A DNA stretch of 64,000 nt from Chitinophagaceae bacterium. Lineage in GTDB: Bacteria; Bacteroidota; Bacteroidia; Chitinophagales; Chitinophagaceae. Numbering within the stretch: the stretch's first letter is position 1; every line of letters begins with the position of its first letter. Shown here in pieces: positions 6,134 through 10,582 of this stretch. The notes under the pieces were generated by a model that had not been told where the DNA came from, did not search any database, and worked only from the letters and a program-made list of their open reading frames with translations. The stretch spans positions 1 through 64,000 of the forward strand of contig JADBXR010000010.1 in assembly GCA_020403425.1 (NCBI GenBank), read 5' to 3'. A program made the translations under genes and the position numbers.

Positions 6134-7705
6134 TTAGAAGGGTGCGTCGTTGTCGAAGCCTTCATCAAAATCACCCCCGTTCATCTTGCTGCCTTTCTGG
6201 ATAAAGAGTTTGCTGTCTCCGGCGCCACCTGCTGCCGGTGGCACTGATGGACCAACCGGTTTCCAGCTTCCGCCCAGTCCCGGCATTCCGCCGTTATCGT
6301 CCCACTCTTCAAATTTCTGGATCTCCAGTTTGGCGCGCAGTTTCACGGTCTCAAGTGAACCGTTCCGGTGTTTGGCGATACGTACATGCGTTTCACCATG
6401 GGTGCTTTCGCCATGTTCGTTGTTCATCACTTCATAGTATTCCGGACGGTAGATGAACATGACCATATCGGCATCCTGTTCAATGGCTCCTGATTCACGG
6501 AGGTCACTCAACTGCGGCATCTTACTTTCCTTACGGGTCTCGACCGCACGGCTTAACTGGCTCAAGGCAATGATGGGTACGTTCAGTTCCTTGGCGAGCG
6601 CTTTCAGGTTACGGGAGATATTGCTGATCTCCTGTTCCCGGTTGCTGTTCCGGTCGCCGCTGCCGCTCATGAGCTGCAGGTAGTCGATGATGATGATGCC
6701 TACATTGTGTTTGTTCACCAGCCTTCTGGCTTTGGCGCGGAATTCGAAGATGTTCAGTGCTGCGGTATCATCGATGAAAATAGGGGCCACTTCCAGTTTC
6801 TTGATGCCCTTGCTCAGCAGTTGTTCGTACTCGTAGTTCTCCAGTTTGCCCCGGCTGATCTTTTCCATCTTGATCTCGCTCTCGGCACTCAGGATACGCT
6901 GTACCAGCTGTGAGGCGCTCATCTCCAGCGAAAAGAAACCCACAGGTACCGGTTTGGTAGGATGCAGGGCCGAATTCCGGGCCAGGTTCAGTGCGAAGGC
7001 TGTTTTACCCACGGAAGGACGTGCCGCCAGGATGATCAGGTCCGTAGGCTGCCAGCCATAGGTGATGCGGTCCAGCGTAGGGAAACCGCTGGGTACTCCC
7101 GAAATATCTTCGGTCTTGGTACGCAGTTCATCGATACGGTTGATGGTCTTGGCCAGTACGTTCTGGATATCTTCAAAGTTCTTCTTCAGGTAATTGTTGG
7201 TGATGTTGAACATCTTGGTCTCACTCTCATCCAGCAGGTCGAAAACGTCCGTGCTGTCCTCATAAGCGTCGCCAATGATCTCGCCACTGATGCGGATCAG
7301 TTCGCGCTGGATGAATTTCTGCAGTACGATACGGGCATGCGCTTCAATATTGGCGGTAGACACCACCGAGTTGGTGAGTTTGGTCACGTAATAAGGTCCA
7401 CCCACTGCATCCAGCTGCTCGCGCATTTTCAGTTCCTCCACCACGGTCAGGATATCGATGGGCATACTTTTCTGCTGCAGGCCCTGCATGGCTTTGTATA
7501 TCAGCTGATTGGCCTCAACGTAAAAACATTCGGGTTTGATGATCTCAGAGATGGTATCAAAAGCGCTTTTTTCCAGCATTACGGCACCCAGTACCGCTTC
7601 CTCCAGTTCCTTTGCCTGTGGCGGTACTTTGCCATACAGCATGGTGCTCATGTCTATCGAGGTCTTCCTTCTTTTCCGGTCTTTGTTCAGGCTGGTGAGA
7701 TCCAT
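6134..7705 (-). CDS. dnaB: replicative DNA helicase DnaB
   Basis: PPQAKELEEAVLGAVML, ARPSVGKTAFALNLARN, DLRESGAIEQDADMVMFIYRPEYY. Confidence 0.97.
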   Translation of the reverse strand: MDLTSLNKDRKRRKTSIDMSTMLYGKVPPQAKELEEAVLGAVMLEKSAFDTISEIIKPECFYVEANQLIYKAMQGLQQKSMPIDILTVVEELKMREQLDAVGGPYYVTKLTNSVVSTANIEAHARIVLQKFIQRELIRISGEIIGDAYEDSTDVFDLLDESETKMFNITNNYLKKNFEDIQNVLAKTINRIDELRTKTEDISGVPSGFPTLDRITYGWQPTDLIILAARPSVGKTAFALNLARNSALHPTKPVPVGFFSLEMSASQLVQRILSAESEIKMEKISRGKLENYEYEQLLSKGIKKLEVAPIFIDDTAALNIFEFRAKARRLVNKHNVGIIIIDYLQLMSGSGDRNSNREQEISNISRNLKALAKELNVPIIALSQLSRAVETRKESKMPQLSDLRESGAIEQDADMVMFIYRPEYYEVMNNEHGESTHGETHVRIAKHRNGSLETVKLRAKLEIQKFEEWDDNGGMPGLGGSWKPVGPSVPPAAGGAGDSKLFIQKGSKMNGGDFDEGFDNDAPF

Positions 7706-7852
7706 GTATCGTCAGTTCTTTAAAGAGTTAGTAAACTTTTTTGCCATTCTTCCGAGGAACAGTGTCCGTGTTAAGGAATTGTTACCCTGGAAGGAAAGGG
7801 GAGCGAATATATGGGTTAGAAAGTGGCCTCAGAAAATTTTTTCGGGCAATTT

Positions 7853-7953
7853 TCATCCACAGTCAATCCCAAGGCTATCCACAGTCAGCTGCCCTCTATC
7901 CACACAAATTACTAAGCTTATCCACCAAAATCAAAAGTTTTCCGCTATCCTCA
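7853..7953 (+). promoter_or_regulatory. cluster of five DnaA-box-like 9-mers (candidate oriC or DnaA-regulated region)
   Basis: TCATCCACA 7853-7861, CTATCCACA 7875-7883, CTATCCACA 7896-7904, TTATCCACC 7918-7926, CTATCCTCA 7945-7953. All same strand; spacing 22, 21, 22, 27 bp. Consensus TTATCCACA. Confidence 0.7.
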
Positions 7954-7961
7954 CCCGGTAA

Positions 7962-7979
7962 TGCACAGGGCCCTGTGCA
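7962..7979. repeat. perfect 18-bp palindrome tgcacagggccctgtgca
   Basis: tgcacaggg / ccctgtgca are reverse complements with no loop. Confidence 0.9.
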
Positions 7980-8044
7980 GAAAGAATTCTCAGAAAAAAA
8001 GGGGGCTTTCAGGGGAAATGGCGTAACTGGTATGCGGGGGTTTA

Positions 8045-8104
8045 GTGAGTGGTGAGTGGTGAATGGGCTGTTTTTTCACTGCCTGCTCACCACTCACCAC
8101 TCAC
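8045..8104. repeat. heptad-arm inverted repeat element A
   Basis: gtgagtggtgagtggtga (8045-8062) is the exact reverse complement of tcaccactcaccactcac (8087-8104); 18-bp arms, 24-nt spacer. Confidence 0.9.
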
Positions 8105-8164
8105 GATTCACGTCCCACGTGAATTTTATCGCTTATTTTTGATGCCCGTAAAGAGCAAGCAACT

Positions 8165-10582
8165 ATGACGATCAGTTACAATTGGTTATGTGATTACCTG
8201 CCGGAAGCCATTGAGCCAGAGAAATTATCGAAGATCCTGACCTCGATCGGTCTGGAAGTGGAAAGTCTTGAAAAATATGAGAGCATCAAGGGTGGACTGG
8301 CAGGCCTGGTGATCGGTGAGGTATTGGAAACCAGCCAGCATCCCAATGCCGATAAACTGAAACTGACCAAAGTGAATATTGGTGCCGCTGAACCCTTGCA
8401 GATCGTTTGCGGGGCAGCCAATGTGGCCGCCGGACAAAAAGTGGTGGTGGCCACTATCGGAACCACGATCTACCCGGTGGGTGGCGATCCCCTGACCATG
8501 AAACTGGCCAAGATCCGCGGTGTGGAAAGCCAGGGAATGATCTGCGCCGAAGATGAGATCGGTGTGGGTACCAGTCACGACGGGATCCTGGTAATGCCCG
8601 CAGATGCCAGGGTGGGCTCACCTGCGGCGGATCACTTCAAGCCTTATTCCGACTGGATCTATGAGATCGGTCTTACCCCCAACCGGATGGATGCCATGAG
8701 CCATTATGGCGTTGCCAGGGATGTTTGCGCCTATCTCACGCATCATATCGCTGAGGCCAGGGTAAGAACGCCTTTTACCAATGGGTTCTCCGTAGACAAT
8801 ACTTCCTTGCCCATCAAGGTCACTATCGAGAATACAGAAGCCTGCCCGCGGTATGCCGGTGTGAGCATCAGCGGCGTGACCGTAGGGGAATCGCCCAAAT
8901 GGCTGAAAGACCGGTTGGTGGCGATTGGACTTCGTTCGATCAACAATATCGTCGATATCACCAATTTCATCCTGCACGAGACCGGTCAGCCACTGCATGC
9001 TTTTGATGCGGATGCCATCACCGGGGGGCAGGTGATCGTAAAGAACCTGCCTTCGGGTACTCCGTTCGTTACGCTCGATGAAAAAGAAAGAAAGCTGGAT
9101 GCCGGGGACCTGATGATCTGTAATGCCCAGGAAGGCATGTGTATCGCCGGCGTATTTGGTGGATGGAAAAGCGGGGTAACAGCTACTACAAAGAATATTT
9201 TCCTGGAAAGCGCCTGGTTCCATCCCGTGAGTATCCGTAAGACATCGGTCCGCCATGAACTGCGTACCGATGCGGCCACCCGTTTTGAGAAAGGGGTGGA
9301 CATTTCCCATACCGTGCAAGTATTGAAACGGGCGGCATTGCTGATCAAAGAGATCGCCGGTGGAAGCATTTCCAGCGAGATTGTGGACGTATATCCTGAC
9401 CCCAGGCCAAAGGCAGAGGTTTCGCTCAAGAACCATTACCTCAAAAAACTGAGCGGTAAGAACTACCATGCCGATGCCATCAAACGCATCCTCCTCAGCC
9501 TTGGTTTCGAGATCGTGCGGGAAGGACTGGATGAATTGCGCGTGGCCGTTCCTTACAGCAAACCGGATATCAGCATACCGGCCGATATCGTGGAAGAGAT
9601 CCTGCGTATCGACGGGTTGGACAATATCGAGATCCCTTCCACCATCACCATCAGTCCGGCGGTAGAGGCGCTGGGGCAAAAGGAATCTTTGAAGGATAAG
9701 ATCGCCACTTACCTGGTGGGACAGGGTTTTACCGAGATACTGACGAACTCCATCACCAACAGCAAATATTTTGACGAAGAAGTATTGGCCGTAACGGTGA
9801 AGATGATCAATAACCTTAGTGAAGAACTGAACGTGCTGCGTCCATCCATGCTGGAAACGGGTCTGGAGTCCATTGCCTATAACCTGAACAGGCGTAACCA
9901 GAATCTCCAGTTCTTTGAGATCGGGAAAACGTACCATACAAAGGCTGTGGGTGAATATGTAGAAACAGAGCATCTCTGCCTGTACATAACAGGTAATGAT
10001 CATGAGGACAGCTGGCGGGAGAAGGGCAGGTCCAATGATTTTTACCGGTTGAAAGGGCTGGCCACAGCCTTGTTCACTTTATCCGGTATCGGAAACCTGC
10101 AATTCGAAAAAGCAGATGGCGATGGCCTGGTGCTGAACCTGGTAAGCGGCAAAAAGCAGATGGGACAACTGATGCAGGTATCGGCCCAGAAATTACAATC
10201 ATTCGATATCAAACAGCCTGTGTTCGTACTGGATATCGAATTCGGCAGTTTGCTGGATGCGGTCGGTCAGAATAAGATCCGTTACAGGGAAGTGAACAAG
10301 TTCCCCGTGATGCAACGCGACCTGGCCATGGTGGTGAACCGTGGCATCAGTTTTGAGCAGATAGAGCAGACGGTGAAAAAAGTCAAACTTCCCCGGTTAC
10401 AGGAAACGCGTCTTTTTGATGTGTTCGAAAGTGAGAAACTGGGTACCGATAAAAAATCCATGGCCATCAGTTTTCTGTTTGCCGATGAGGAGAAGACCCT
10501 TACGGACAAGGAAGTGGACGCCATGATCGCCAAACTGATACAGGGTTTTGAGAAGGACCTGGCAGCCGAGATCCGGAAATAA
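8165..10582 (+). CDS. pheT: phenylalanine--tRNA ligase subunit beta
   Basis: MTISYNWLCDYLP, tRNA-bind domain, B3/B4, B5 and FDX-ACB domains (DLAMVVNRGISFEQIEQTV). Confidence 0.97.
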   Translation: MTISYNWLCDYLPEAIEPEKLSKILTSIGLEVESLEKYESIKGGLAGLVIGEVLETSQHPNADKLKLTKVNIGAAEPLQIVCGAANVAAGQKVVVATIGTTIYPVGGDPLTMKLAKIRGVESQGMICAEDEIGVGTSHDGILVMPADARVGSPAADHFKPYSDWIYEIGLTPNRMDAMSHYGVARDVCAYLTHHIAEARVRTPFTNGFSVDNTSLPIKVTIENTEACPRYAGVSISGVTVGESPKWLKDRLVAIGLRSINNIVDITNFILHETGQPLHAFDADAITGGQVIVKNLPSGTPFVTLDEKERKLDAGDLMICNAQEGMCIAGVFGGWKSGVTATTKNIFLESAWFHPVSIRKTSVRHELRTDAATRFEKGVDISHTVQVLKRAALLIKEIAGGSISSEIVDVYPDPRPKAEVSLKNHYLKKLSGKNYHADAIKRILLSLGFEIVREGLDELRVAVPYSKPDISIPADIVEEILRIDGLDNIEIPSTITISPAVEALGQKESLKDKIATYLVGQGFTEILTNSITNSKYFDEEVLAVTVKMINNLSEELNVLRPSMLETGLESIAYNLNRRNQNLQFFEIGKTYHTKAVGEYVETEHLCLYITGNDHEDSWREKGRSNDFYRLKGLATALFTLSGIGNLQFEKADGDGLVLNLVSGKKQMGQLMQVSAQKLQSFDIKQPVFVLDIEFGSLLDAVGQNKIRYREVNKFPVMQRDLAMVVNRGISFEQIEQTVKKVKLPRLQETRLFDVFESEKLGTDKKSMAISFLFADEEKTLTDKEVDAMIAKLIQGFEKDLAAEIRK

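Follow-up and report, generated by a model that had tools for sequence, protein, structure and literature searches.

In Mycobacterium tuberculosis and M. smegmatis, the initiator protein DnaA binds upstream of the replicative helicase gene dnaB, and a Mycobacterium DnaA mutant with weaker binding at this place under-expresses dnaB (PMC7738170). A passage of the same article that cites Hottes et al. 2005 gives the same link between DnaA and dnaB for Caulobacter crescentus (PMC7738170). DnaA-activated promoters in Caulobacter also include those of hdaA (with up to six boxes), gcrA, ftsZ, and mipZ (PMC3193534), and DnaA-regulated regions of Bacillus subtilis include sda, ywlC, trmE-noc, and others (PMC4447404).

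Here we analyzed an array of DnaA-box-like sites upstream of dnaB in a 64-kb window (the whole stretch of DNA under study) from a member of the Chitinophagaceae, a family of Bacteroidota. As at the Mycobacterium dnaB promoter, the DnaA-box-like sites precede the gene for the replicative helicase; however, binding in Mycobacterium and Caulobacter was established experimentally and in other phyla, whereas the Chitinophagaceae array consists of six to seven phased boxes that occur family-wide and are known from sequence. It resembles the hdaA, gcrA, ftsZ, and mipZ promoters of Caulobacter in having boxes at the promoter of a replication or cell-cycle gene, although the targets are different and the regulation measured in Caulobacter is a prediction for the array. 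As in the B. subtilis regions, whose target genes differ, a group of DnaA boxes lies away from oriC with a transcriptional role (predicted for the array). Clustered co-oriented DnaA boxes and adjoining A/T-rich DNA are also shared with bacterial oriC regions, but the array lacks the GC-skew origin, which lies at the nadA/recA-ppiD intergenic region (ppiD is the name used here for the peptidylprolyl isomerase gene beside it). DnaA binding upstream of dnaB is of a kind already known, whereas the length of the array, its phasing, its lock to the promoter, and its family-wide conservation in Bacteroidota appear to be new; no description of a long phased dnaB array conserved throughout a family of this phylum was found in open papers. 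The array is a place at which the initiator may regulate expression of the helicase that it loads. Together with Mycobacterium and Caulobacter, a Bacteroidota family showing this link would point to DnaA control of dnaB as a design that recurs.

Array of DnaA-box-like sites between dnaB and pheT

Five co-oriented DnaA-box-like sites (7853-7953) and a perfect palindrome had been described in the original prediction, and their sequences and positions were reproduced here, as was the length of 459 bp for the dnaB/pheT intergenic region when calculated from the gene coordinates (Table 1). The earlier list of sites was incomplete, since one further site on the plus strand (7959-7967) and one on the minus strand (7974-7982) had been overlooked. 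Under the looser consensus TTATNCACA, the palindrome can be read as the sixth plus-strand site facing the inverted minus-strand site, and the full array comprises six co-oriented sites plus one inverted site at its terminus. A peak of minus-strand sites at the offset of this terminal site (170 bp) was observed in 33% of 45 Chitinophagaceae loci.

Table 1. Features of the dnaB/pheT intergenic region and of the nadA/recA-ppiD region. Coordinates are positions in the window unless a genome and contig are given; offsets are distances from the dnaB promoter element
Feature	Sequence	Coordinates	Strand	Remark
dnaB, replicative DNA helicase, putative regulated gene		6134..7705	-	NCBIfam TIGR00665 DnaB, 523 bits, above cut-off
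dnaB promoter -7-like element	TATATTCG	7804..7811	-	One mismatch from Bacteroidota TAnnTTTG
A/T block	AAAATTTTTT	7833..7842	-	Conserved ~26 bp upstream of -7-like element in relatives
DnaA box 1	TCATCCACA	7853..7861	+	Offset 49 bp
DnaA box 2	CTATCCACA	7875..7883	+	Offset 71 bp
DnaA box 3	CTATCCACA	7896..7904	+	Offset 92 bp
DnaA box 4	TTATCCACC	7918..7926	+	Offset 114 bp
Conserved block between boxes 4 and 5	CAAAAGTTTTCC	7932..7943	.	Kept in 6/6 aligned congeners
DnaA box 5, weak	CTATCCTCA	7945..7953	+	Offset 141 bp
DnaA-box-like site over palindrome left arm	TAATGCACA	7959..7967	+	Offset 155 bp, enriched in relatives too
Perfect palindrome	TGCACAGGGCCCTGTGCA	7962-7979		In dnaB (-)/pheT (+) intergenic DNA
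Inverted DnaA-box-like site over palindrome right arm	TTCTGCACA	7974..7982	-	Offset 170 bp, array terminus
pheT promoter -7-like element	TATTTTTG	8134..8141	+	Match to TAnnTTTG
pheT, divergent neighbour, probably not target		8165..10582	+	TIGR00472, 782.8 bits; array also present without pheT
nadA/recA-ppiD intergenic region		G000:C24:51787-52353 (window's genome); G010:C1:949516-950031		DnaA boxes, A/T-rich stretch, conserved GTTAATTAAC block

Individual boxes are mostly one mismatch away from the consensus, and some drift is seen among species. As single one-mismatch sites are no commoner in the window than in shuffled sequences (17 versus 16.8), the significance of the array rests on their grouping: four co-oriented sites lie within 74 bp, and none of 300 simulated 64-kb sequences reached even three per 75 bp. 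When 310 kb of the window's genome was searched for groups of at least three sites per 100 bp, two places were detected, namely the dnaB array and the nadA-ppiD region.

All five genes to the left are located on the minus strand, as had been proposed (dnaX, an unnamed gene, an L,D-transpeptidase-like gene, rsmE, and dnaB). On the right, pheT, two small ORFs, rny, and rplS are on the plus strand, but approximately seven plus-strand ORFs, rather than eight genes, precede the first minus-strand ORF. The DnaB protein of the window shares 90% identity with its counterpart in a Sediminibacterium MAG and 88% with the one in S. magnilacihabitans, which points to Sediminibacterium, or a closely related member of the Chitinophagaceae, as the probable source of the window. 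The intergenic region also contains an inverted repeat of GTGAGTGGTGAGT (8045-8104); this 13-mer has 107 exact copies in the genome, often as facing pairs, and is a dispersed REP-like intergenic repeat.

Conservation of the array in Chitinophagaceae

Regions upstream of dnaB were compared in 80 Chitinophagaceae loci, of which 74 remained once near-duplicates had been removed. These 74 loci contain 229 co-oriented sites, compared with 28 in dinucleotide shuffles, and 41 inverted sites, compared with 15; at least three sites within 100 bp were found in 45 of them (0.09 expected). The arrays are concentrated in front of dnaB, with 48 in the 450 bp upstream of this gene and 7 in the other 1.4 Mb over 79 loci. 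Boxes are thus conserved upstream of dnaB beyond chance, as would be looked for at a DnaA-regulated promoter. Because 20 genomes representing other families of the order showed no array, or a weak one, in front of dnaB, the array can be regarded as a trait of Chitinophagaceae as far as sampled. In four related loci (L224, L229, L232, and L244), three further DnaA-box-like sites form a second group, which in each case lies at the same position approximately 3.6 kb from the array toward dnaB.

Putative dnaB promoter and helical phasing of the sites

The -7 consensus of Bacteroidota promoters is TAnnTTTG (PMC9723704). Between the array and dnaB lies a -7-like element that is a weak match to this consensus in the window and whose plus-strand form, GGGGAGCGAATAT, is invariant in six congeners; it was found in 46 of the 74 family loci, compared with 5 and 3 for control patterns. 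A scan with the sigma-70 consensus returned nothing useful. The AT-rich stretch noted earlier before the first box is indeed present. This A/T block occupies the expected position of the -33 region, and it is more probably a piece of the dnaB promoter (its -33 element or a part further upstream) than an unwinding element. The conservation of the CAAAAGTTTTCC block within the array is at genus level, not family-wide. Its minus strand reads AACTTTTG, which is close to TAnnTTTG, and the block may represent a second dnaB promoter or a site of another protein.

Distances between sites fall near multiples of 10.5 bp in 63% of cases (versus 23%). Measured from the -7-like element in 45 loci, the sites are mainly located at 49-50, 59-61, 71-73, 92-94, and 113-115 bp, spaced by one or two turns of the helix, with R = 0.69 at 10.6 bp, a statistic that overstates independence because the loci share ancestry. 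Some permuted motifs (26-32 matches, in conserved flanks) also gave high R values. However, two observations are independent of this inflation by shared ancestry: the number of sites (124 matches for the DnaA box, whereas permuted motifs average 7), and the variable position of the ATG with respect to the array. With the ATG as reference, phasing is poor (R = 0.25), the first box being 70-293 bp and the -7-like element 21 to 199 bp away from it. The sites hence keep a fixed and helically phased position relative to a promoter, again as expected for DnaA regulation, with the promoter being predicted and the loci sharing ancestry.

Predicted control of dnaB by DnaA

A DnaA-controlled regulatory region of dnaB and pheT had been offered in the original prediction as an alternative to an origin. 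This proposal is supported, and we narrowed it to dnaB for two reasons: the array keeps its register with the promoter-like element of dnaB, and it also occurs without pheT. With a probability of roughly 0.78, the array belongs to the dnaB promoter and would serve as follows. Starting approximately 49 bp upstream of the -7-like element, the six co-oriented sites and the inverted terminal site would lie mostly on one face of the helix; DnaA would bind them cooperatively and act on RNA polymerase from upstream, in a position like that of a class I activator, and the supply of DnaB helicase would then follow the level of active DnaA. Both the binding of DnaA to the array and the function of the -7-like element as a promoter are putative. 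The DnaA protein encoded in the window's genome is intact and carries near its C terminus the GGRDHTTVIH signature usual for DNA binding. Activation appears somewhat likelier than repression, because initiator sites placed on one face, in step, and upstream of a weak promoter are what would be expected of an upstream activator. A wider role, in which the array sets the timing of dnaB transcription while also keeping DnaA away from oriC and so couples helicase production to initiation in Chitinophagaceae, is a tentative possibility.

It is unlikely that the array is purely a DnaA reservoir or reactivation site that tunes the timing of initiation, similar to E. coli datA/DARS or the DnaA-box clusters of B. 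subtilis, with its adjacency to dnaB being incidental. The dense local sites, the rarity of such arrays in the 310 kb searched, and, in complete congeners, a position approximately 340-470 kb away from the likely origin would all agree with a reservoir; however, neither phasing to the dnaB promoter element nor linkage to dnaB is needed by a pure reservoir, and the array stays beside dnaB when its other neighbour changes. The linkage to the dnaB promoter argues against control of the datA/DARS type as the main role.

Regulation of pheT, or of both genes, rather than of dnaB is very doubtful. Both genes do share the divergent region that contains the array, and a good -7 element precedes pheT (TAnnTTTG was found within the final 60 bp 5' of pheT in 55 of 61 loci). 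Nevertheless, the distance between the array and the dnaB side is constant while the intergenic length ranges from less than 200 to more than 1000 bp among loci, and half of the loci without pheT (8 of 16) retain the array.

GC skew and the location of the replication origin

The original prediction also proposed the array as a candidate oriC. In such a reading, DnaA would unwind the A/T stretch at 7831-7853 and load DnaB. Clustered co-oriented boxes, an A/T-rich flank, divergent genes, and the adjacent dnaB all speak for it, but GC skew makes this highly improbable. As the window's genome consists of 29 contigs, complete congeners were used for skew analysis, and skew was sampled on stretches. 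The single contig of G010 (3.716 Mb) shows predominantly negative sampled skew as far as 949.9 kb and predominantly positive values from 950 kb onward, and the flip at 949.5-950.0 kb corresponds to the nadA-ppiD intergenic region, with recA adjacent, 467 kb from dnaB (1.415 Mb; dnaA is at 1.812 Mb). A fit with correction for gene strand favoured nadA-ppiD over dnaB as the origin in this genome (2*dlogL 28). The support interval in G017 (2.22-2.48 Mb) includes nadA-ppiD (2.294 Mb) and excludes dnaB (2.637 Mb; 12.3), and the two places were not separated in G061. dnaA itself was rejected as the origin by the skew fit in both G010 and G017, with the wrong sign in G010.

At the array, a cluster of DnaA boxes is present but the minus-to-plus change in GC skew is not: no sign change was observed in the window, in G010, or in strand-matched comparisons over 48 relatives. 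On the window's contig (C2), skew is positive to the left as well as to the right of the array, with values of +0.025 and +0.022, respectively, for minus-coding DNA. The raw skew difference around dnaB in the 48 relatives (0.069) can be attributed to gene orientation, because it vanishes in comparisons of genes with matching strand (0.009 +/- 0.008 for 31 loci and -0.020 +/- 0.008 for 16 loci). Gene orientation is part of the reason why the region resembled an origin. The A/T block at 7833-7842 adjoins the boxes but falls in the same place as the conserved promoter region of dnaB. The origin claim was to be given up if skew pointed elsewhere and the boxes lacked conservation in relatives; the former proved to be the case, whereas the boxes are conserved. 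For a group whose origin is not marked by dnaA, our analysis puts right what was probably an erroneous oriC call.

The nadA/recA-ppiD region is likely the true oriC of the window's genus, several hundred kb from dnaA. On contig C24 of the window's genome, where this region lies at approximately 51.8-52.4 kb, skew is -0.0225 to the left and +0.0225 to the right, and its broad minimum falls between 40 and 75 kb; nearly uniform gene orientation within +/-10 kb limits strand-matched comparison here. The region has an A+T content of 61-80%, several DnaA boxes, and a conserved GTTAATTAAC block, and a TATCCAC-A/T-rich-TTATCCAC motif is found in many congeners. No literature on the origin of this group was found among open papers. 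Binding of the array by some other transcription factor that recognizes a TTATNCACA-like site is hardly credible: DnaA binding in the window's genus is itself a prediction from sequence, but the consensus is identical to the DnaA box, these boxes are found again at the skew-defined origin region, and DnaA has its canonical signature.

A DnaA box, TTATCCACATGTGG, is also present upstream of dnaA (L001:1955-1970; G000:C26), and autoregulation of dnaA via this box is possible.
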